From a bacterium (GTDB lineage Bacteria; Patescibacteriota; Minisyncoccia; Minisyncoccales; RBG-13-42-11), in NCBI GenBank assembly GCA_030646565.1, contig JAUSLA010000023.1, positions 1 to 37,148 on the forward strand: a stretch of 37,148 bases of DNA. The letters run 5' to 3'. Below are positions 872 to 35,211 of this stretch, one piece after another. Below the pieces are notes generated by a model that saw nothing but the letters and a program-made list of their open reading frames with translations, ran no database searches and was not told the DNA's origin. The position numbers and the translations under genes were made by a program. How positions within the stretch are numbered: the stretch's first letter is position 1; the number at the start of each line of letters is the position of its first letter.

Positions 872-3445
872 ATGTCATTCTTATCTAAGGTCTTTGGCGA
901 CGCTAACGAGAAATATGTAACTAATATCCAGCCCATTATTGAGAAGATAAATTCCCTTGAAGAACAGTTCAAGGGTTTTTCTGATGAAAATTTAAAAGAA
1001 AAAACACAAGAATTGAAGGCAAAATTAAACGAAGCCCGAGGTTGTTTATTGGATGATATTCTTCCCGAAGCATTTGCTTTAATCAGAGAAGCTGCTAAAA
1101 GAACTCTTAATCAAAGGCATTTTGATGTGCAGTTGGTTGGTGGTATTGTTTTGCATGAGGGTAACATTGCTGAAATGAAAACAGGCGAAGGAAAGACATT
1201 GGCTGCCACCTTGCCTGTCTATTTAAACGCTTTAACCGGAAAAGGGGTTCACGTAGTCACGGTGAACGACTATTTGGCAAAAAGAGACGCGGTTTGGATG
1301 GGGCAGATTTATAATCTTCTTGGATTGTCAATAGGATGTATTATGCATGAGGGGGCATATACATATGACTCTGCTTATATGAGTCCCGCGAAGCGGGATG
1401 AGTCGAAGAATATCCATTCTTCTTCATCCCTCGCTACGCTCGGACAAATTAAGAAGAGAACGCAGTTCTCTTCGCCTCAACAGGAAGCTCCTGTTTTAGC
1501 TGGCGAACGCGACAAAGAAAGAGATATTATTGGAGGATTTAAGGTTTTTGATAGTTATCTAAGGCCTTGTCAGAGGAAAGAAGCGTACGCGGCCGATATT
1601 ACTTATGGTACCAACAATGAGTTTGGGTTTGATTATTTGAGAGATAATTTAGTATATGATCTGCAACAACAAGTTCAGAGAGGGTTTAATTATGCCATTA
1701 TTGATGAAGTCGACTCAATCTTAATTGATGAAGCCAGAACTCCTCTGATTATTTCAGCTCCCGATACGGAAAGCTCGACATGGTATCGAGAATTTTCCAG
1801 AATAATCCCGAAATTAGATTCAAAAACCGATTATGAAATTGATGAAAAAATGAAGGCCGTTACTTTGACGGAGGGAGGAATTAATAAAATTGAAAAAATC
1901 CTGGGAATGGAGAATATTTATGAAGCGCGGGGAATAAAGTATCTGCATTATTTAGAGCAGGCTTTAAAGGCAGAAGTTCTTTTTAAAAAAGACAAAGACT
2001 ACGTAGTGAAGAATGGCGAAATTATTATTGTGGATGAATTTACCGGAAGATTGATGCCGGGCAGAAGATGGTCGGGCGGACTTCATCAGGCAATTGAAGC
2101 AAAAGAAAATGTAAGAATTCAGGCAGAATCAATTACTTTAGCTTCAATTACTTTTCAGAATTATTTTCGTCTTTATAAGAAATTAGCCGGAATGACCGGA
2201 ACTGCCGCCACTTCAGCTGAAGAATTTGATAAAGTTTATAATCTGGATGTAATTACAATTCCGACTCATAGACAGCTGATAAGGAAAGAGTTGCCGGATA
2301 GAATTTATAAAAATGAAAAAGGAAAATTTGAAGCGGTTGTCAGAGAAATTAAAGAAAGGCATAATTTAGGACAGCCTATCTTGGTTGGCACCACCTCAAT
2401 TGAAAAAAATGAATATTTGGGAAAGTTATTGGACAGAGAGGGTGTTCCCCACGAAATTCTTAACGCAAAGAATCATGAAAAGGAAGGAGAAATTATCGCG
2501 CAAGCAGGCAGATTTGAAGGTGTTACCATAGCTACAAATATGGCGGGCAGAGGAGTGGATATCGTTTTGGGAGGCAACCCGCCGAATTCCGATGGGGCTC
2601 AAAAAGTTGTAGAACTCGGCGGACTTCATATAATTGGCACAGAAAGGCATGAAGCCAGAAGAATTGATAATCAGCTAAGAGGAAGATCTGGCAGGCAGGG
2701 AGACCCGGGTTCCTCTCAATTTTTTCTTTCTTTGGAAGACGATATATTGAGAATTTTTGGGTCAGATAGAATAAAATCTTTAATGGGTGTTCTTAAAATT
2801 CCAGATGACGAGGCCATTGAGGCAAAAATGGTTTCCGGAGCAATTGAGTCGGCCCAGGCGAAAATCGAAGGAATGAATTTTGATTTGAGAAAGCATGTTC
2901 TAGAATATGATGACGTAATGAATAAACATAGAGAGGTGATTTATAAAAAAAGAAGAGAGATACTGGAAAAGTCTAAAGTCCAAAGTCTAAAGTCCGAAGA
3001 CGGCCTAAGATTCCATATCCTTGAATTAATTAAAAAAAATGGTTTTACAGAAGCCGATTATGAAAAAAAAGAGAAAGAGATTGGCGAGGAAAAAATGAGA
3101 GAAGCAGAAAAAATTGTTTCCTTGAGAGTTTTAGATATGTTTTGGCTGGAACATTTGGAAAATATGGAGCATCTAAGGGATTCTGTGAGATTGAGGGCTT
3201 ACGGCCAGAAAGATCCTTTAATTGAATATAAATCAGAGGGCCACAAAATGTTCCAGGGATTATTAAGCCAGATTGAAAAGACCACCGCGGATACTTTAAT
3301 GAAAGTTATGATTGAAGAAAATCCTTCACCGACTTCTTTGGTTTCTCGAGCACCCTCAACTATCAAATCAAAAAATATTCCTGGTCGCAATGACCCATGC
3401 GTGTGTGGAAGCGGGAAAAAATATAAAAGGTGTTGTGGGAAGTAG
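872..3445 (+). CDS. secA: Preprotein translocase subunit SecA
   Basis: 857 aa; MKTGEGKTLAATLPVYLNAL, YGTNNEFGFDYLRDN, DEVDSILIDEARTPLIIS, TNMAGRGVDIVLGGNP, C-terminal CVCGSGKKYKRCC zinc motif. Confidence 0.98.
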   Translation: MSFLSKVFGDANEKYVTNIQPIIEKINSLEEQFKGFSDENLKEKTQELKAKLNEARGCLLDDILPEAFALIREAAKRTLNQRHFDVQLVGGIVLHEGNIAEMKTGEGKTLAATLPVYLNALTGKGVHVVTVNDYLAKRDAVWMGQIYNLLGLSIGCIMHEGAYTYDSAYMSPAKRDESKNIHSSSSLATLGQIKKRTQFSSPQQEAPVLAGERDKERDIIGGFKVFDSYLRPCQRKEAYAADITYGTNNEFGFDYLRDNLVYDLQQQVQRGFNYAIIDEVDSILIDEARTPLIISAPDTESSTWYREFSRIIPKLDSKTDYEIDEKMKAVTLTEGGINKIEKILGMENIYEARGIKYLHYLEQALKAEVLFKKDKDYVVKNGEIIIVDEFTGRLMPGRRWSGGLHQAIEAKENVRIQAESITLASITFQNYFRLYKKLAGMTGTAATSAEEFDKVYNLDVITIPTHRQLIRKELPDRIYKNEKGKFEAVVREIKERHNLGQPILVGTTSIEKNEYLGKLLDREGVPHEILNAKNHEKEGEIIAQAGRFEGVTIATNMAGRGVDIVLGGNPPNSDGAQKVVELGGLHIIGTERHEARRIDNQLRGRSGRQGDPGSSQFFLSLEDDILRIFGSDRIKSLMGVLKIPDDEAIEAKMVSGAIESAQAKIEGMNFDLRKHVLEYDDVMNKHREVIYKKRREILEKSKVQSLKSEDGLRFHILELIKKNGFTEADYEKKEKEIGEEKMREAEKIVSLRVLDMFWLEHLENMEHLRDSVRLRAYGQKDPLIEYKSEGHKMFQGLLSQIEKTTADTLMKVMIEENPSPTSLVSRAPSTIKSKNIPGRNDPCVCGSGKKYKRCCGK
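1379..1477 (+). repeat. Palindromic element inserted in frame in secA
   Basis: gagtcccgcgaagcgggatgagtcgaagaat...tcgctacgctcgg...GAAGAGAACgcaGTTCTCTTCgcc; encodes SPAKRDESKNIHSSSSLATLGQIKKRTQFSSP. Confidence 0.85.
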
Positions 3446-6904: not shown

Positions 6905-7262
6905 ACATAATCTTCGGGCAATTTACCCCGGGTGACCACGCAGTTTCCGTTCGGCCAACTTGCCTTAGGGAGCACGCCATCGGCTTAATTAGAAGAAAGA
7001 AGTTTATTTCCAGCCGTGGCTATTTCTCGCCCCGCCTCCTTAACTTAGAAGATAGTTTATAGTCAGTAGCGGGCGGGGCTGCGAAGTGCACCCTTCGGCA
7101 AGATTGGCCTCGCTTAAAGATTTTTTATTCGTACATTCGTATACCGAGTCCCGCTTTGCGAAGAACTTTCGTTCTTCTTTACCCTTCGCCTGTGGCTCGG
7201 GTGCGGGACGAAGGTGAAGAAGAGAACGAAGTTCTCTTCGCCTTAATTCGTAATTCGTAGGG
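6905..7262. repeat. Intergenic cluster of palindromic repeat modules
   Basis: tcttcgggcaatttaccccgggtga; gagtcccgctttgcg / aagaactttcgttctt / cccttcgcctgtggctcgggtgcgggacgaagg; GAAGAGAACgaaGTTCTCTTC at 7219-7239. Confidence 0.75.
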
Positions 7263-7313
7263 TATTTGACAATCTGTCTGCAAAATGCTTAAATAGGATA
7301 ACATAATATCAGC

Positions 7314-7421
7314 GACGAGGACTACGTCCTCGTCTTCACCTTCGTCCGCCAGAGGCGGACTCGGTGGTTAAAGAAGATAAATCTTCTTTTCCACCTCGCT
7401 CAATTTTATTGAGCTCGGTTT
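7314..7421 (+). repeat. Two tandem bipartite palindromic elements directly upstream of the ATG
   Basis: GACGAGGACtacGTCCTCGTC-ttcaccttc-GTCCGCCagaGGCGGAC-TCGGTgg, then AAGAAGATaaATCTTCTT-ttccacctc-GCTCAATtttATTGAGC-TCGGTTT-ATG. Confidence 0.9.
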
Positions 7422-8402
7422 ATGAAGTTCAATTATTCTCAAATTTGTTTCGAAATTCTAAAAGATCTTCCCAAGCGGCAAAAGGATGTATTACTGCGGC
7501 GTTTTGGTTTACGTTCAAAAGCCGGCAAAAGGGAAACTTTAGAATCAATCGGGAAAAGCATGAATGTTACCAGGGAAAGGGTGCGTCAGATTGAAAGAGA
7601 CGGATTTTTAGGGTTAAAATCGGAAGTCAAAAATTCTTCCGTTGTTTTCCAATTTTTGCAGGAATGTCTTAAGAAAAAAGGCGGTTTAAAAAGAGAAGAA
7701 GCTCTTTTGGAAGAATTGGGGGGACAGAAAGAAAAAAATCAGATTTATTTTTTATTGACTTTAAGCGAAAATTTTCAACGTTTCGCAGAGACGGAAGATT
7801 TCTATAGTTTATGGACCTTGGGCCAAAATTATCTTTTAAAGGCGGAAAAAGTTTTAACTTCAATTTATAGCAAGCTCAAAAAATTCGGCAAACCCGCCAC
7901 CTTCAATGGTTTAAAATCTTTCGGTCTCGTAAACCAAAATACTCTTGCTTCTTGTTTGGAGGTTTCCAGAAAAATTCAGCGAAATTCGGAAGGGTTTTAT
8001 GGTTTGAAAGAGTGGCCGGAAATTAATCCGAGAGGAGTAAAAGATAAGGCCTACATAGTGTTTAAGAAGGAAAAAAGGCCCCTCCACTTTAATGAGGTTG
8101 CTTCTCTTTTGGAAAAGGCCTTGCCCCAAACCGTCCATAACGAATTGATAAAGGACCCAAGGTTTGTTTTGGTCGGCAGGGGATTGTACGCTTTGCAAGA
8201 ATGGGGATACGAGCAGGGTTATGTCAAAGACGTTATTTACAAGATTTTAAAAGAGGCAAAAGGGCCATTAAGCAAAGAAGATGTGTTGGCTAAAGTTTTA
8301 AAGCAGAGAATGGTCAAAGAAAATACTATTTTGCTCAATCTGAACAACAACCAATATTTCTCAAAAACGCCAGAGGGCGGCTATACGATCAAAGAAGCGT
8401 AA
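7422..8402 (+). CDS. Sigma-70 region 4-like HTH protein with HARE-HTH-like C-terminal region
   Basis: 326 aa; LPKRQKDVLLRRFGL...TLESIGKSMNVTRERVRQIERDGF (sigma-70 region 4 signature); C-terminal region resembles HARE-HTH/RpoE-delta domains. Confidence 0.75.
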   Translation: MKFNYSQICFEILKDLPKRQKDVLLRRFGLRSKAGKRETLESIGKSMNVTRERVRQIERDGFLGLKSEVKNSSVVFQFLQECLKKKGGLKREEALLEELGGQKEKNQIYFLLTLSENFQRFAETEDFYSLWTLGQNYLLKAEKVLTSIYSKLKKFGKPATFNGLKSFGLVNQNTLASCLEVSRKIQRNSEGFYGLKEWPEINPRGVKDKAYIVFKKEKRPLHFNEVASLLEKALPQTVHNELIKDPRFVLVGRGLYALQEWGYEQGYVKDVIYKILKEAKGPLSKEDVLAKVLKQRMVKENTILLNLNNNQYFSKTPEGGYTIKEA

Positions 8403-9773: not shown

Positions 9774-9783
9774 CAAGGTGGAC

Positions 9784-9836
9784 GAAGAGAGCCTTGCTCT
9801 CTTCTTTATTATTCACCCCGCTTCGCGGGATTCATA
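9784..9836 (+). repeat. Bipartite palindromic element abutting the ATG
   Basis: GAAGAGAGCcttGCTCTCTTC ... CCCGCttcGCGGG-attcata-ATG. Confidence 0.85.
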
Positions 9837-11630
9837 ATGGCTGATGAAATAATTTTTTTTGGAGAGACCACCTTCCGGGACAAGAGAAGGAGATTTGGCA
9901 TTAAGACCGATGATAGGCGAAGGCACACGTATCTCATTGGAAAAACCGGCATGGGAAAATCAGCGATGCTGGAAAATATGGCGATTCAGGACATTCAGTT
10001 GGGCCACGGCATTGGCTTTGTTGACCCTCACGGAGAAGCGGCCGAGGGCTTGCTGGATTTTATCCCCAGCAACAGAATCAACGATGTCGTATATTTTAAT
10101 CCGGCCGACATTGACTATCCGGTTGCTTTTAATATTATGGAAAAAGTTGATTTTGGGCATCGACATCTTGTTGCTTCGGGTTTAATGGGCGTTTTCAAGA
10201 AGATTTGGCCAGACGTTTGGTCAGCCAGGATGGAGTATATTTTAAATAACTGTATTTTAGCCCTTTTGGAATATCCGGGCTCCACTCTTTTGGGGGTGAA
10301 CCGAATGTTAGCCGACATAGATTACAGAAAAAAAGTGGTGGATATGGTTACAGATCCAATGGTAAAATCGTTTTGGGTTAAGGAGTTTGCCAGATACACC
10401 CAGAGATACGAGGTTGAGGCAACCGCCGCAATTCAGAACAAAGTCGGCCAGTTCATATCCGCTCCCTTGATTAGAAATATTATCGGGCAAGTTCAGTCAA
10501 AGCTTGATATGCGAGAAATTATGGATGAAAATAAAATTCTAATCCTCAACCTGTCAAAGGGAAGAATCGGCGAAGATAATTCAATGCTTTTGGGAGCGCT
10601 TCTAATCACAAAATTGCAGTTGGCCGCAATGTCCAGAGTGGATATTCCGGAGGAAAAAAGAAAAGATTTTTTCCTTTATGTTGACGAGTTCCAGAATTTT
10701 GCCACGATTTCCTTTGTCAATGTGTTGTCTGAAGCAAGAAAGTATCGACTGTCCCTAATTTTAGGCCACCAATATATTACTCAAATGGAAGAAGAAGTAA
10801 GAGACGCTGTTTTCGGGAACGTGGGAACTCTGGTTTCTTTTCGGATTGGAGCCGACGACGCAGAGTTTTTAGAAAGAGAATATAGCCCGGATTTTATTGC
10901 CGCTGATTTCGTCAATTTAAAAAAGTACAATATTTATGTTAAATTAATGATAGACGGCTTAGCCAGCAGGCCTTTTTCCGCTGAGACCCTTTCGCCTTTC
11001 CCGACTTTAGAAAAATCGAATCGGGAAAAAATCATTCAGGTTTCCAGAGAAAGATACAGCTCTTCAAGGCAAAGCGTTGAGGAAAAAATTTCTAAATGGT
11101 CAGGGGTTATGGACGAGCCGCAAACTTCTTCGCAGACTCAATCCCAATTCCAATCTCAATCTCAATCTCAATATCAACCACAATCTCAAGTAGTTTTATA
11201 TGATGCAAAATGCGCCAGTTGTGAAAAATGGACAAAAGTAACATTTTTACCAGATCCTTTAAGGCCTGTTTATTGCAAGTCTTGTTTGAAAAAGATTAAA
11301 AATCCTCCTGCCAAGCCAGAGGAAAAACTTTCATCCGTCGAGGCTTCCGTCCCGCCCGCAAGCGAGACTTTTACGGATAAGTCGGCGGAGAAACTAGAGG
11401 GCGAACCCGCCTTCGCCGAGGCTTCGGCGGGCAAGGAAAAACCTGAAACCAAAACCATTTCTCTCACAGAGGCAACTAAAAGAGAGCCCTTCACCTTCTC
11501 AAAAAAGAGGTCGGAAGAAAAGCAAGCCCAAAGAAAAGAAGTCAACTTAGAAGAACTAAAAAGCGTTTTAGAGGAGTCATTAAAAAAGATAGAAACCGAG
11601 AAAAAAGATGCTGACTCTAAAGGAACTTAA
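9837..11630 (+). CDS. Type IV secretion/conjugation-type DNA-transfer ATPase (VirD4/TraD/HerA-like)
   Basis: 597 aa; Walker A LIGKTGMGKSAMLENMA, GIGFVDPHGEAAEGLLDFIP, Walker B FFLYVDEFQNFAT, ...LSEARKYRLSLILGHQYITQM; Gln/Ser-rich linker and CxxC...CxxC C-terminal region. Confidence 0.88.
   Translation: MADEIIFFGETTFRDKRRRFGIKTDDRRRHTYLIGKTGMGKSAMLENMAIQDIQLGHGIGFVDPHGEAAEGLLDFIPSNRINDVVYFNPADIDYPVAFNIMEKVDFGHRHLVASGLMGVFKKIWPDVWSARMEYILNNCILALLEYPGSTLLGVNRMLADIDYRKKVVDMVTDPMVKSFWVKEFARYTQRYEVEATAAIQNKVGQFISAPLIRNIIGQVQSKLDMREIMDENKILILNLSKGRIGEDNSMLLGALLITKLQLAAMSRVDIPEEKRKDFFLYVDEFQNFATISFVNVLSEARKYRLSLILGHQYITQMEEEVRDAVFGNVGTLVSFRIGADDAEFLEREYSPDFIAADFVNLKKYNIYVKLMIDGLASRPFSAETLSPFPTLEKSNREKIIQVSRERYSSSRQSVEEKISKWSGVMDEPQTSSQTQSQFQSQSQSQYQPQSQVVLYDAKCASCEKWTKVTFLPDPLRPVYCKSCLKKIKNPPAKPEEKLSSVEASVPPASETFTDKSAEKLEGEPAFAEASAGKEKPETKTISLTEATKREPFTFSKKRSEEKQAQRKEVNLEELKSVLEESLKKIETEKKDADSKGT
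11399..11441 (+). repeat. In-frame palindromic repeat encoding a PAFAEASAGK-type peptide
   Basis: gggcgaacccgccttcgccgaggcttcggcgggcaagg encodes EPAFAEASAGKE; CCCGCCttcgccgaggcttcGGCGGG palindrome. Confidence 0.75.
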
Positions 11631-12667: not shown

Positions 12668-12765
12668 TCTTCGGGCAGAATTGCCTCGGGTGAATTAAGT
12701 TCTCTTCGCCTACCGAAGGTGAAGATAAAAACGCAGTTTTCATCGCCTTAATTCGTAATTCGTAG
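12668..12765 (+). repeat. Palindromic repeat modules between pgk and the DHH gene
   Basis: tcttcgggcagaattgcctcgggtga (cf. 6911-6935) and GATaAAAACgcaGTTTTcATC-gccttaattcgtaattcgtagg (cf. 7239-7261). Confidence 0.75.
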
Positions 12766-12769
12766 GATT

Positions 12770-14011
12770 ATGGAGATTAAAAATCTAAAAAAGGCGGCAA
12801 AAAGAATCCTGAAAGCGATAGAAAAAAAGGAAAAAATCATTCTCTACGGAGACGCGGATTTAGACGGCGCGGCTTCGGTAATTATTTTGAAAGAAAGCGT
12901 TAAAAGCTTGGGCGGAAATATTTGCGCGATTTATTTTCCGGATAGGGAAATTGAAGGACATGGCATTACAAAAATGGGTTTGGAATTTCTAAAAAAAGAA
13001 GCTCCGGCTCTTTTAATCGCCGTGGACTGCGGCATTGGAAACTTAAAAGAAACGGCAATGGCAAAGAAAATGGGTTTTTCGGTTTTGATTGTTGACCATC
13101 ACGAGGTTTTGGATAAAATGCCAAAAGCCGATATTATTGTCGACCCTAAACAAAAAGGGGATAAATACTATTTTAAGGGATTGGCCGCAGCCGGAGTTGT
13201 TTTCAAACTCGCAGAGGCCCTTTTTGAGGAGAAAATGGCGAAGAGGACTGCGTCCTCGTCTTCAACTACCCGAGCGAAAACGAAGGGTGGAGAAGAACGA
13301 AAATTCTTCGATTCGTCCTGCAAGCAAGACTCAATGACGGAGAATCTAAGAAAGAATTTTTTGGAATTGGTGGCTTTGGCCACTTTAGCGGATATGATGC
13401 CTCAAGAAGCAGATAATAAGGTTTTTATTTCAGAAGGGCTTCAATCTTTGGAAAATTCCTGGCGGCCCGGAATAAAGGCGTTTTTTGAAACAGAATTTTT
13501 GGAGGAATTTTCCGGAATAAGTCAGAAGGTCGCCAAAATTATTTCTGTTTTAAACGTCAGAGACGTTGAGAGTCGGTTTCCGGCAAGTTTCAGATTGTTG
13601 ACCGTCGTTTCTCTTTCGGAGGCCGGAAGAATCATTGAAGAACTTTTTGAAAGGAGTAAAATTAGAAAGGAAGTAATAAATGGCACCGTAGATGAAATTG
13701 AAAAAATTATAGCTGAAAAAGACGAATCTATTGTTTTTGAAGGAGATTCCTCTTTTGACCTTGCCTTGTTGAGTGCGGCTGCATCAATAATTTGTCAAAA
13801 ATTCCAAAAGCCCGTTTTTCTTTATAAAAAAATGGCAAAAGAGTCCCAGGGTACGGTGCGTGTGCCCTCTGGCGTAGACAGTATTGCCTTAATGAAAAAA
13901 TGCTCAAAATATCCCTTGGCTTTTGGCGGCCATCCGAAAGCGTCGGGTTTCAGGATAAAAAACGATAATTTAGAAAAATTTAAAACTTGTTTAATAGAAA
14001 ATTATCGGTAG
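12770..14011 (+). CDS. DHH-family phosphoesterase / RecJ-like single-strand exonuclease
   Basis: 413 aa; ILYGDADLDGAASVIIL, VDCGIGN, LIVDHHEV, ATLADMMP, C-terminal GGHPKASGF. Confidence 0.9.
   Translation: MEIKNLKKAAKRILKAIEKKEKIILYGDADLDGAASVIILKESVKSLGGNICAIYFPDREIEGHGITKMGLEFLKKEAPALLIAVDCGIGNLKETAMAKKMGFSVLIVDHHEVLDKMPKADIIVDPKQKGDKYYFKGLAAAGVVFKLAEALFEEKMAKRTASSSSTTRAKTKGGEERKFFDSSCKQDSMTENLRKNFLELVALATLADMMPQEADNKVFISEGLQSLENSWRPGIKAFFETEFLEEFSGISQKVAKIISVLNVRDVESRFPASFRLLTVVSLSEAGRIIEELFERSKIRKEVINGTVDEIEKIIAEKDESIVFEGDSSFDLALLSAAASIICQKFQKPVFLYKKMAKESQGTVRVPSGVDSIALMKKCSKYPLAFGGHPKASGFRIKNDNLEKFKTCLIENYR
13240..13335 (+). repeat. Palindromic element inserted in frame in the RecJ-like gene
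   Basis: GAAGAGGACtgcGTCCTCGTC-ttcaactacccgagcgaaaacgaagggtgg-agAAGAACgaaaATTCTTcgattcgtcctgc; encodes RTASSSSTTRAKTKGGEERKFFDSSCKQDS. Confidence 0.88.
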
Positions 14012-14013
14012 TC

Positions 14014-14127
14014 AAAGAGAACTTTGTTTTCTTTTCCACCTGCGTCCCGCTTACAGCGGGACTTGGTAGGCGACGAGGCCTTCGGCCTCGTCTTAATCTT
14101 CGCTTTCGCTACGCGAAAGCTTGATGA
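14014..14127 (+). repeat. Two tandem bipartite palindromic elements abutting the RNase H ATG
   Basis: AAAGAGAACtttGTTTTCTTT-tccacctgc-GTCCCGCttacaGCGGGAC-TTGGTAG, then GACGAGGCCttcGGCCTCGTC-ttaatctt-GCTTTCGctacgCGAAAGC-TTGatga-ATG. Confidence 0.92.
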
Positions 14128-14571: not shown

Positions 14572-14584
14572 AGATATTACAGTC

Positions 14585-14636
14585 GACGAGAACTGCGTCC
14601 TCGTCTTGACCTGGGTCCTGCTTCGCAGGGCTTGTG
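14585..14636 (+). repeat. Bipartite palindromic element
   Basis: GACGAGAACtgcGTCCTCGTC-ttgacctgg-GTCCTGCttcGCAGGGC-TTG. Confidence 0.85.
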
Positions 14637-14649
14637 TTTTAACGGGGGC

Positions 14650-14907: not shown

Positions 14908-14934
14908 CATTAACCGACTTCTCTTCTCCCTCAA

Positions 14935-14968
14935 CAAAAAAACAATTCGTCAAGGAATTGTTTTTTTG
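14935..14968 (-). terminator. Intrinsic terminator of rnpB (symmetrical)
   Basis: AAAAAAACAATTC-gtcaag-GAATTGTTTTTTT. Confidence 0.85.
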
Positions 14969-15405
14969 TGTCCCAGCAAGTCTGTAAGCCGAATTCTGTA
15001 TCCTTCGTTCCGCTTCGCGGAACTCGGGATGGTGATTATCTATCTGGTCCCTCGATTACTCTCGGGATCAAGCGAGTTACCTTTTCAGGAAAATTCTAAG
15101 ATATAAAAACCCAGAACCTCCCGTTTACTCTTGCGCCCGATAAGGATTTAGCCGTTTCACTCCCAAGATTACTCTTGAGATTCGCCCTATTCCGCCTTAC
15201 GGCGGACGGGCGCCCGACGCCTTTCGGCGTCTAGGGCGTCACTGTTCGCACCTCTAGCCTTGCTCCATAAATTACAGAGTTTGCGCCGATGGATGTTATC
15301 CACTATCTTTTTAGATCCCGCTAAAAGCGGGAAATGAGTGTTCGGACTTTCCTCCCGACCAAATATTTATATTGGTATAGGGCAATCACCCGACTTACTG
15401 GGACA
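14969..15405 (-). ncRNA. rnpB: RNase P RNA, bacterial class A-like
   Basis: Minus strand has GAGGAAAGTCCGAAC (P4 5' side), GCGAACAGTGACGCC, GAGTGAAACGGCTAAATCC, ACAGAATTCGGCTTACA; ends pair as P1 (GTCCCAGTAAGTC / GACTTGCTGGGAC). Confidence 0.95.
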
Positions 15406-19812: not shown

Positions 19813-19909
19813 AGAGGAGCGACAAGAAAGCCAACCATGCTTAAAGCCACCAAAGAGACAAGAATAATCCAGATTATTTTTATAAATTTTCGCGACATAC
19901 ACCGAGCTT

Positions 19910-20006
19910 TCGCGTAGCGAAAGCGAAAGTTAAGATGAGGACGCAGTCCTCATCGCCTACTCGAGCGAAGCGAAGAGTAAAGATGAGGACGCAGTCCTCA
20001 TCGCCT
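19910..20006 (+). repeat. Palindromic element cluster; H1 hairpin duplicated exactly
   Basis: GAGCTTTCGcgtagCGAAAGC; GATGAGGACgcaGTCCTCATCgcct at 19934-19958 and 19982-20006 flanking a tcgagcgaagcgaagagt spacer. Confidence 0.9.
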
Positions 20007-20639: not shown

Positions 20640-20731
20640 GTCCCGCAAAGCGGGGGAAGTCAAAGAACACGTTCGTGTTCTTTTCCACCCGTCGCCTTCA
20701 GCTAGGGTGAACGGAGTTCTCTTCGCCTTAG
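20640..20731 (+). repeat. Palindromic element cluster upstream of prfB
   Basis: TCCCGCaaaGCGGG; AAAGAACACGttCGTGTTCTTT; ttccacccgtcgccttcagctagggtg; ggagttctcttcgcctta. Confidence 0.8.
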
Positions 20732-21861: not shown

Positions 21862-21863
21862 GT

Positions 21864-22018
21864 CAAAGAGATTTGCGTTCTCTTTTCCATCTTCGCTTTC
21901 GCTACACGAAAGCTCGGTAGGCGACGAGGACTGCGTCCTCGTCTTCATCTACCCGAGCAGAGCGAAGGGTGGAGAAGAACGAAAGTTCTTCGACTCGTTC
22001 CGCTTTGCGGGACTTGGT
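21864..22018 (+). repeat. Tandem bipartite palindromic elements upstream of ftsE
   Basis: GCTTTCGctacaCGAAAGC-TCGGTAG, GACGAGGACtgcGTCCTCGTC, tacccgagcagagcgaagggtgg, AAGAACgaaaGTTCTT, TTCCGCtttGCGGGAC-TTGGTA. Confidence 0.92.
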
Positions 22019-22034
22019 AATAAATTAAAACTCG

Positions 22035-22730: not shown

Positions 22731-22875
22731 GGCGACGAAGACTGTGTCTTCGTCTTCAGCTACCCGAGCCGTAGGCGAAGGGTGAAGAAGAGCTTCGCTC
22801 TTCGACTCACTTTCGTTACACGAAAGCTCGGTAAGGGAAGATTCGTAATATAAGGCGACGAAGACTGTGTCTTCG
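22710..22875 (+). repeat. Palindromic element flanked by a 43-bp direct repeat that includes the ftsE 3' end
   Basis: aagggaagattYgtaatataaggcgacgaagactgtgtcttcg at 22710-22752 and 22833-22875 (one mismatch). Confidence 0.92.
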
Positions 22876-25094: not shown

Positions 25095-25114
25095 AGTAGA
25101 ATAAAGCTAGAGGC

Positions 25115-25167
25115 GAAGAAAACTTTGTTTTCTTCTTCACCTTCACTGGCATAAATGCCAGCTTGGT
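25115..25167 (+). repeat. Bipartite palindromic element upstream of engB
   Basis: GAAGAAAACtttGTTTTCTTC-ttcaccttca-CTGGCAtaaaTGCCAG-CTTGGTA. Confidence 0.92.
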
Positions 25168-31009: not shown

Positions 31010-31012
31010 GAC

Positions 31013-31067
31013 GAAGAGGAATTTATCTTCTTCTTCACCATCGTTTCTATAAATAGAAACTCGGTTG
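31013..31067 (+). repeat. Bipartite palindromic element separating hicB and hicA
   Basis: GAAGAGGAAtttATCTTCTTC-ttcaccatc-GTTTCTAtaaaTAGAAAC-TCGGTTG-ATG. Confidence 0.92.
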
Positions 31068-32015: not shown

Positions 32016-32022
32016 TAAAGGC

Positions 32023-32075
32023 GATGAGGACTTCGTCCTCATCTTCAGCTTCGTCCCATAAATGGGACTTGCTAT
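32023..32075 (+). repeat. Bipartite palindromic element in the 5' leader
   Basis: GATGAGGACttcGTCCTCATC-ttcagcttc-GTCCCATaaATGGGAC-TTGctat-ATG. Confidence 0.92.
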
Positions 32076-32338
32076 ATGGAAAAGAAAAACATTACAATTG
32101 ATGATTTAGCGGTAATGGTTCAAAAAGAATTCCGTGAGATTGACCAGAAATTGAGTAAATTAGATAGTAATGATCAAATAATACTTAAGCGATTAGAGGG
32201 CGTAGTTTATCGAACAGAGTAGGGCGAAGAGAACTGCGTTCTCTTCTTTACTTTCGTCCGCCAGAGGCGGACTTAGTATTAGAAGTTAGGGTTATTGAAT
32301 TAGAAAATCTGCTCGCAGTAAATACTAAAAAGCGGTAG
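32076..32338 (+). pseudogene. Small coiled-coil gene interrupted by a palindromic element
   Basis: MEKKNITIDDLAVMVQKEFREIDQKLSKLDSNDQIILKRLEGVVYRTE* (32076-32222), element 32226-32280, then in a different frame EVRVIELENLLAVNTKKR* (32282-32338). Confidence 0.7.
32226..32280 (+). repeat. Bipartite palindromic element inside the small coiled-coil gene
   Basis: GAAGAGAACtgcGTTCTCTTC-tttactttc-GTCCGCCagaGGCGGAC-TTAGTA. Confidence 0.9.
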
Positions 32339-33660: not shown

Positions 33661-35211
33661 ATGGATAATCAAGAAGTTATTTTAAGATTTGACAAAGTTT
33701 CTTTTAGCCACGGCCACAGCAAACCCATTTTAAATGAGGTCAGTTTTTCTATGAGGCGGGGATCAAAAATTACTTTAATGGGCCAGAACGGCGCGGGCAA
33801 AAGCACTATTTTCCATCTCATCATCGGCGTCTTGGAGCCTGATTCGGGCGCTATTCATCTTGGCGCCGGGCTTACTGTGGCCGCAGCCAAACAAATCATT
33901 CCCCGGGATCAGCTCCATCTTACCTTGAGGGAGTTCTTCCAGAACTGCTTTAAAGAAAAGATTTATGATATTGATCCTAGGATTGACGAGGTTTTGAAAG
34001 TGGTCAATATGTCGCCGAGTCCTGCGAAGCAGGGCGAATCGAAGAACTTACGTTCTTCTCTACCCTTCGTTGCTACTCGGGCAGGCAAAGATGAAGCAAA
34101 GCTTCATCGCCCAGCTGACCATGGCAGGTTGATTAAATCGTTTTCTGGCGGACAACAAGCCAGGCTGCTTTTGGCTTCAGCTATTATCCAAAACCCTGAT
34201 TTGTTGCTTTTAGACGAGCCGACTAATAATCTGGATAAGGAGGGGATCAGCCATTTGACGCAATTTCTGATTGATTATCAGAAAACCTGCATTGTTATTT
34301 CCCACGACGCTGATTTCCTGAATGCTTTTACCCATGGCGTTTTATATTTAGATATTTTCACCCGTAAAATTGAGCAATACACGGGAAATTATTTTGATTT
34401 ATTGGTTGAAATCGCGGCCAGAATCGAAAGGGAAAACAGGAAAAATGCGCAGTTAGCCAAGAGAATTTTAGAGAACAAAGAAAAGGTAAACTATTTTGCC
34501 CAAAAAGGAGGCAAGATGAGGCTGGTGGCGAAGAAAATGCGGGACCAAGCCAAAGAGATGGAAGAAGCCAAAGTTGACGTTAGGAAGGAGGATAAGACCA
34601 TCAGGCCTTTTACTATTCCTTGCCAGCAGAATATTGGCGGGGAAATTTTGAATATCACTTCTTTCTCGGTTGTGGAGAAACACAAGCTTGTAAAAAAAGA
34701 AGCCAAGATTTCTTTAAGGAAAAAAGAGCGCTTGCTTTTAGTTGGGCCCAATGGTATTGGCAAAACCACTTTGCTTGAATCTTTGGCTTCGGGTAAAGCC
34801 AAGGGCGCAAAAATCACTCCGGGCGTTAAGGTGGGATATTACCGTCAGGATTTTTCTACTCTTAACTTTGACGACACGGTCTATCAATCTCTAATTTCAG
34901 TAGCCGAGGATTCGTCTGAAGAGAGTATCCGTTCTCTGGCGGCCGGTTTTTTAATTACCGGCGACTTGATTTATTCGAAAATCGGCAGCTTGTCCGAAGG
35001 CCAAAAAGGTTTAGTGTCTTTAGTTAGGCTCGTGCTCCAAAAACCCGGCCTGCTTATTTTGGACGAGCCAACCAATCACATCAACTTCCGTCATTTACCG
35101 GTTATTGCAGACGCTTTGAATCAATACGATGGCGCCATGGTTTTGGTCAGCCATATGCCTGAATTCGTCGGGCAAATCAGGATCGATGAGATTCTTGATT
35201 TGAGCAAATAA
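33661..35211 (+). CDS. ABC-F family ATP-binding protein
   Basis: 516 aa; two ABC domains: GQNGAGKSTIFHLI / FSGGQQARLLLASAI / LLLLDEPTNNLD and GPNGIGKTTLLESL / LSEGQKGLVSLVRLVL / LLILDEPTNHI. Confidence 0.95.
   Translation: MDNQEVILRFDKVSFSHGHSKPILNEVSFSMRRGSKITLMGQNGAGKSTIFHLIIGVLEPDSGAIHLGAGLTVAAAKQIIPRDQLHLTLREFFQNCFKEKIYDIDPRIDEVLKVVNMSPSPAKQGESKNLRSSLPFVATRAGKDEAKLHRPADHGRLIKSFSGGQQARLLLASAIIQNPDLLLLDEPTNNLDKEGISHLTQFLIDYQKTCIVISHDADFLNAFTHGVLYLDIFTRKIEQYTGNYFDLLVEIAARIERENRKNAQLAKRILENKEKVNYFAQKGGKMRLVAKKMRDQAKEMEEAKVDVRKEDKTIRPFTIPCQQNIGGEILNITSFSVVEKHKLVKKEAKISLRKKERLLLVGPNGIGKTTLLESLASGKAKGAKITPGVKVGYYRQDFSTLNFDDTVYQSLISVAEDSSEESIRSLAAGFLITGDLIYSKIGSLSEGQKGLVSLVRLVLQKPGLLILDEPTNHINFRHLPVIADALNQYDGAMVLVSHMPEFVGQIRIDEILDLSK
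34012..34115 (+). repeat. Palindromic element inserted in frame in the ABC-F gene
   Basis: CCTGCgaaGCAGG, GAAGAACttacGTTCTTC, tacccttcgttgctactcgggc, GATGAAGCaaaGCTTCATC; encodes SPSPAKQGESKNLRSSLPFVATRAGKDEAKLHRPA. Confidence 0.88.

Follow-up and report, generated by a model that had tools for sequence, protein, structure and literature searches.

Double-hairpin elements in the window

The window, the whole 37,148-nucleotide stretch of DNA analysed here, is one contig of a 770-kb genome in 74 contigs (G000; completeness 93%). It carries secA, a recJ-like gene, a TraD-like gene, an ABC-F gene and the RNase P RNA gene rnpB, and between and within these lie short palindromic elements built of two hairpins, H1 and H2 (Table 1). 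The hairpins that a preliminary description had placed at 7314, 9784, 14072, 19934, 22734, 25115 and 32226 were all found as written there, and only that at 20662 departs from the 9+3+9 geometry claimed for it, being 9+4+9. The element at 7367..7419 has its 3' end two nucleotides ahead of an ATG at 7422. A scan of the window with Rfam 15 placed three tRNAs and nothing else above the gathering threshold; the element matches no family.

The preliminary description had proposed that a covariance model be built from the copies and run against this genome and its relatives. The resulting model, R1, was built from 11 copies, all with 7-nt H2 arms, and with a cut-off of E<=1e-3 it detects at least 157 copies across the 770-kb genome, its best E-value being 5e-19; at E<=1e-8 there are 188 matches in 531 kb of genome stretches, and the genome probably holds two hundred or more copies. 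Maximal perfect 9+3+9 hairpins number 12 in the window and 0-2 in each of 20 block shuffles, and in 241 kb of the genome the arm-9/loop-3 class numbers 66, every other arm/loop class reaching at most 33.

From the listed hairpins and their flanks, elements of type A, about 55 nt long within an overall range of roughly 45-57 nt, follow the grammar GGC-H1(9+3+9)-TTC-[xyz-TTC-H2(7/8+3/4+7/8)-TC-z'y'x']. The 9-nt H1 arm has the form [AG]A[ATC]GA[AG][AG][AGC][CT], its 3-nt loop is TGC or TTC in most copies, and 3' of H1 come TTC, the triplet xyz, TTC or TGC, H2, then TC or TT, and finally the triplet complementary to xyz. Because the two triplets are complementary across copies, what had been described as a TTCACCTTC spacer and a YTYGGTA tail, both of which are present, are not plain spacer and tail; they form in part the two strands of a third, covarying helix of 3 bp, which encloses H2 and leaves an internal loop of TTC/TC or TGC/TT. 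The commonest triplets are ACC/GGT (26), ATC/GAT (10), ACT/AGT (4) and AGC/GCT (3). The supposedly fixed 9+3+9 geometry holds for one of two subtypes only, GGC...TTC, whereas the GTC...TCC subtype has a 7+4+7 or AAAG-type H1. In subtype B, GTC and TCC flank an H1 that is often 7+4+7, and a short H2 is set in ACCC-TTCGC...GC-TCGGGT. Nor is the order H1, spacer, H2 always simple, as several copies are interrupted by a second element and so form composites. The intrinsic ends are GGC or GTC at the 5' side and the last base of z'y'x' at the 3' side, and the 5' foot is preceded by A in 70 of 97 GGC-type copies.

Table 1. Hairpin elements in the window (positions of the whole stretch; R1, score against the covariance model)
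Feature	Position	Strand	Details
Composite, in frame within secA (ORF 872-3445 +)	1384..1476	-	
Type A, H2 loop broken by type B	7143..7242	-	R1 69.8 bits over 100 nt; sequence
Type B nested in H2 loop of 7143..7242 element	7157..7202	+	pattern and R1
Type A, the element first described	7311..7365	+	foot AGC (GGC type), H1 9+3+9, TTC, ACC-TTC-H2(GTCCGCC/GGCGGAC)-TC-GGT; R1 78.6 bits
Second element, directly 3' of 7311..7365	7367..7419	+	AAAGAAGA-type H1 (8+4+8), H2 GCTCAA/TTGAGC; R1 41.9 bits
Type A, GAC foot	9781..9838	+	R1 44.0 bits; ends at start codon of TraD-like gene (9837)
Truncated type A (H1 and spacer)	12712..12747	-	R1 40.1 bits
Composite, in frame within recJ-like gene (ORF 12770-14011 +)	13237..13312	+	
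GTC-type, first of head-to-tail pair	14011..14067	+	R1 62.6 bits
GGC-type, second of head-to-tail pair	14069..14125	+	R1 56.9 bits; ends two nt before ATG 14128
GTC-type	14582..14637	+	R1 50.0 bits
Possible H2-type half element within rnpB (15401-14969, -)	15000..15031	+	R1 27.3 bits at 14988-15028; extra bases in RNase P alignment
Type A	19901..19957	-	R1 59.6 bits
Type A, short H2, tandem with 19901..19957	19959..20005	-	R1 43.7 bits
GTC-type, 9+4+9 H1 (AAAGAACAC gttc GTGTTCTTT)	20659..20708	+	R1 23.3 bits; sequence
GTC-type	21862..21918	+	R1 42.6 bits
Composite: type A H1, reversed type B (21951-21994), H2 of A	21920..22022	+	outer limit from sequence
Composite: type A H1, reversed type B (to ~22806), H2, TCGGT	22731..22843	+	outer limit from sequence
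Type A	25112..25167	+	R1 53.5 bits
Type A, GAC foot, H2 GTTTCTA/TAGAAAC	31010..31065	+	R1 48.3 bits
Type A, xyz = AGC/GCT	32020..32073	+	R1 69.7 bits
Type A, xyz = ACT/AGT	32223..32277	+	R1 75.2 bits
Composite, in frame within ABC-F gene (ORF 33661-35211 +)	34017..34111	-	

The RNase P RNA gene is of class A and scores 98.3 bits, just below the Rfam gathering score of 100; a perfect 15-bp hairpin adjoining it at 14934-14969 is probably a terminator. The H2-type hairpin near the 3' end of the gene may be a half element or instead a native helix of the RNA, and it recalls the insertions of Rickettsia palindromic elements (RPEs) that occur in Rickettsia rnpB. A second dispersed repeat, ATTCGTATATTCGTAATAAATTCGTAATTCGTAGGG, is present in the window at 7246-7262 and 12751 and at least 17 times in 531 kb, often adjoining hairpin elements and often ending directly ahead of TTATG start codons. 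Further repeats are an identical 85-nt stretch at L028:3897 and in L080 (minus strand, position 95), with a long palindrome and an end that resembles the start of a tRNA gene, and a stretch of 44-64 nt, TTTCCCATCTTTCAGACCG...GGGCTGAAGTATGGGAGG, that occurs several times in one 3-kb region (L071:7692-10700).

Target rule, nesting and the search for a mobiliser

Insertion follows the rule A^element^NNN-[ACT][AG]A, the last triplet being mostly TGA or TAA. This triplet occupies positions +4..+6 in 98 of 116 non-tandem copies, compared to 0-33 at other offsets and 15% as genome background; for copies in relatives the figure is 65 of 70. TGA alone stands at +4 in 40 of the non-tandem copies and at other offsets in at most 5; it likewise starts at +4 in 48/142 where no further copy follows, and at any other offset in no more than 5. 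Among type B copies 27/39 obey the rule, and the rest mostly have GGA at the H2-loop site. Target-site duplication was looked for with k=1-8 nt, and flank identity was near chance throughout; a classical MITE moved by a DDE enzyme was rejected for want of duplication beyond chance. The first bases of the element itself, AGGCGA, AGTCGA or AGTCAA, fit the same NNN-YRA pattern, and thus both junctions could be the work of a single enzyme that cuts before NNN-YRA.

Insertions of type B in type A copies recur at three sites: the internal loop, the H1 arm and the H2 loop. The internal-loop site GACGA^AGNTGAAG (B strand) occurs 40 times intact, and in 9 cases a complete type B element breaks it; the H1-arm site AAAGA^GAACGAAG is intact twice and broken by type B three times. 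The motif is a property of the target and not of the element, since TGA or CGA is already in place, correctly spaced, at the intact site. Insertions in the H2 loop carry small ambiguities at the left junction. Furthermore, two loci whose outer flanks differ have an identical 98-nt composite, which suggests that composites may also move as units.

Copies also lie within genes, 18 of 142 H1 copies falling in predicted reading frames as against a coding density of 75%. Open, in-frame copies are present in SecA, a RecJ-like protein, ABC-F, PheT (two), GatA, TsaD, MurD, UvrB and an NrdG-like protein, and several sit well within conserved genes with the frame kept open. In SecA the insert lies at the position of a loop; the SecA of seven of eight relatives is without any such insert, and in that of the eighth (G001) the insert is a different and shorter one whose peptide is similar. 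Two further long reading frames of the genome encode matches to the SecA insert peptide. In another family of the class, a 775-aa ORF (L127, G211:C20) contains two nearly identical composites, inverted relative to each other, neither of which interrupts the frame; the inverted pair was considered as the flanking ends of a transposase and set aside, since both copies are within that one ORF.

The carriers are MAGs of Candidatus Nealsonbacteria and other Parcubacteria. Copy numbers fall from the at least 157 of G000 through 135 in a member of another genus (G007) to 64, 49, 49, 43, 24, 17 and 8, the other relatives having 0-2, and the spread is patchy, with element-rich and element-poor genera within one family. 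A class-wide search of 191 genomes under stricter filters gave strong matches in four only. Pattern matches in Spirochaetales and Alphaproteobacteria look like coincidences of coding sequence and were discarded, and one exact pattern, a weak probe, had no match among viral contigs that would point to a phage origin.

A RAYT-like Y1 transposase had been suggested as a resident mobiliser. No Y1/RAYT gene was found in G000, and G007, which is 100% complete, has a sub-threshold fragment only. Y1 genes above the cut-off occur in 20/39 relatives with no clear relation to element copy number, and none of the eight Y1 loci inspected in relatives is flanked by elements. Reverse transcriptase, TnpB, IscB and IS110 proteins were not confidently found in G000 or G007, the two richest genomes. 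Each of these has a single tyrosine recombinase, as do most relatives, element-free ones included; its presence there, uncorrelated with copy number, led us to reject it as the mobiliser.

It is nonetheless possible, if unlikely, that a visiting Y1 enzyme, since lost, moved the elements by strict single-strand transposition of the IS200/IS605 or RAYT type. Miniature elements derived from IS200/IS605 have hairpin ends and a short target motif and make no target duplication, and the elements described here share these three features with them, the lack of duplication being seen in their flanks and in exact nested junctions; their hairpins lie near both ends, the target resembles the element's own end, and about half of the relatives do have Y1 genes. 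Against such transposition are the lack of a Y1 gene in the richest genomes, the eight unflanked loci, and a target motif that is offset three nucleotides from the junction. Guide-target covariation as in IS200/IS605 is also absent, as the TC and TT variants share +5 base usage and no strong mutual information was seen.

Pairing of the arms

The paired substitutions reported in dispersed H1 and H2 arms were borne out. The 150 best R1 matches, a set that favours well-paired copies, were aligned to the structure; standard pairs fill 97.6% of their pair cells, double changes are seen in 484 cells, and 17/19 pairs have changed on both sides. Slid controls, in which partners were shifted by 1-3 columns, are 37-55% paired with at most 55 double changes, and none of 500 shuffles reached the observed covariation. 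Because the alignment had been fitted to the structure, H1 was also checked free of the model, on 142 hairpins picked by their flanks and arm pattern with up to three mismatches permitted; these have 0.35 mismatches each, compared to 1.86 with the arms re-dealt. The covariation was replicated in relatives' copies (234 cells, 98.6% paired).

One-sided changes number 25 against the 484 double ones, and the variable arm positions are weakly linked, so that combinations arise nearly freely; both observations would suit hairpin-templated (quasi-palindrome) repair or template switching, the latter raised in the preliminary description, either of which would rewrite one arm from the other with no selection on pairing. 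However, a pairing requirement at each mobilisation gives the same scarcity of intermediates, the 150-copy set is in any case biased to well-paired copies, and 28% of H1 copies carry from one to three mismatches that have gone uncorrected. As template switching would also leave dispersal, the target rule and nesting unexplained, we judge it improbable.

Alternatively, the hairpins could be kept at each site by a function in RNA, such as mRNA stabilisation, translation initiation or operon punctuation, with mobility secondary. Consistent with this, pairing is near-perfect, 30 of the 150 best copies end just 5' of a start codon on their own strand (in 21 cases exactly two nucleotides before ATG), and 62/90 copies between co-directional genes share the direction of those genes. 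The position two nucleotides before ATG is also what insertion would give, because the target rule there reads NN-ATGA and insertions that spare the coding frame are tolerated; the most constant base of the rule is the A at +6 and not the A of ATG at +3. RNA-level selection at a site is expected to favour G-U mismatches, and no such excess was seen, A-C/C-A numbering 23 and G-T/T-G 19 on the element strand, and A-C 12 and G-T 13 on the host-transcript strand. Copies lie within reading frames and within other copies, and many relatives have none or almost none. A role in RNA at each site is therefore quite improbable as the reason for the family's upkeep. In 531 kb no Shine-Dalgarno signal is apparent, an SD-like motif being found at -18..-5 in 10% of crudely predicted starts and in 12% of a control stretch.

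Since A-C mismatches are as frequent as G-U, pairing would be enforced when an element is copied or moved, and not by lasting selection on RNA at each site, with resident copies decaying neutrally; the mismatch numbers are small, and we take them as supportive, not conclusive. Short hairpins are frequent in AT-rich intergenic DNA, and chance palindromes or terminators there are already refuted as a source of the family, and their likelihood is practically nil, given the 12 hairpins against 0-2 per shuffle, the specific geometry, the shared sequence and E-values down to 5e-19.

Known palindromes and a proposed mechanism

The preliminary description likened the family to REP/BIME or Rickettsia palindromic elements, with a grammar of its own. 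The likeness is upheld by dispersed, covarying, modular palindromes that match no Rfam family, and it fails on a resident RAYT. RPEs, including RPE-4 and RPE-6, are short palindromes, described as 105-150 bp long, that lie between genes and also open in frame in conserved proteins, with no dedicated transposase known (PMC10969869, PMC2229807, PMC3733652). The present elements likewise insert in frame in unrelated conserved genes (SecA, RecJ, ABC-F, PheT, GatA, TsaD, MurD, UvrB). Set against RPEs by description only, they differ in the phylum of the host, in having a 55-nt double hairpin with a third helix that covaries, and in their explicit target rule. Their behaviour thus appears RPE-like, and we do not claim RPE membership.

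In CGTC-tagged REPs (Di Nocera 2013) the stem measures 8-9 bp, the loop is small and the 5' tag is unpaired; copies occur within genes, and there is no dedicated transposase (PMC3733652). All of these features recur here, the tag being GTC, and a CCA-containing tail (TCCACC) is seen in the GTC type only. CGTC itself is found in 7/47 GTC-type and 0/97 GGC-type copies, AGTC dominating; moreover, the stems start with GA or AA, not AT, the loops are of 3-4 nt, and an H2 module usually follows. With GTAG REP/BIME elements that have a RAYT, the family shares dispersed hairpins, tandem and inverted composites and a preference for intergenic DNA. It differs from them in the absence of a RAYT from the genome, in a fixed H1-H2 order and in the inconsistent presence of a GTAG tag. 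GTAG is near the foot in 25/97 GGC-type and 5/33 GTC-type copies; tandem junctions GGT-A-GGC create it.

As far as PMC4478555 describes them (with Paquin 2000 cited there), the double-hairpin elements of Allomyces mtDNA and the GC clusters of yeast mitochondria are tiny double-hairpin or GC-rich palindromes that spread, merge and shuffle, the yeast clusters with a putative AG target duplication. They are alike in form and shuffling, and unlike in their organelle host, their sequence and the duplication, which is lacking here. Of known systems RPEs and REPs come closest, the CGTC-tagged REPs most of all. Reports of such elements in CPR were not found in the literature searched, which included few subscription journals. 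This is a genuine CPR mobile-palindrome family, its REP/RPE-like kind already known and the variant new.

As read from the sequences, the family has defined ends, a target rule, no target duplication, clean nesting, in-frame insertion in genes and a patchy distribution. We consider it likely that these are very short non-autonomous two-hairpin mobile elements, spread through Nealsonbacteria-type CPR genomes by a trans-acting, hairpin-recognising enzyme, because mobility accounts together for the covariation, the target rule and absent duplication, the nesting, the SecA site that is empty in seven of eight relatives, the in-frame copies, the patchy numbers and the A-C mismatches. Counting against this reading, no Y1, reverse transcriptase, TnpB, IscB or IS110 protein was confidently found in G000 or G007, their one tyrosine recombinase is shared with element-free genomes, and guide-target covariation was not seen. 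The enzyme would recognise the hairpins in folded form, single-stranded DNA being its most likely substrate, cut just 5' of an NNNYRA-like motif, which the element carries at its own 5' terminus as AGGCRA or AGTCRA, and then rejoin. If well-folding copies alone are moved, surviving lineages would retain paired arms whose sequences drift in compensated fashion, and resident copies would then decay neutrally. The enzyme may have been lost, may have diverged, or may be a co-opted host protein. More tentatively, and with the balance somewhat against it, the mechanism could be one not yet described, in which an enzyme, perhaps a normal cell protein, inserts folded double hairpins before NNN-YRA with no duplication, in genomes that have no Y1, reverse transcriptase, TnpB, IscB or IS110.

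Very small CPR genomes are usually regarded as streamlined, and here one of them carries a selfish-looking palindrome whose copies probably number two hundred or more, some of them located in essential proteins. The family also provides an independent case of palindromes turned protein segments, best known before from Rickettsia and Wolbachia. Furthermore, with exact ends, a target rule and nested copies, the movement of transposase-less REP- and RPE-like palindromes becomes testable.
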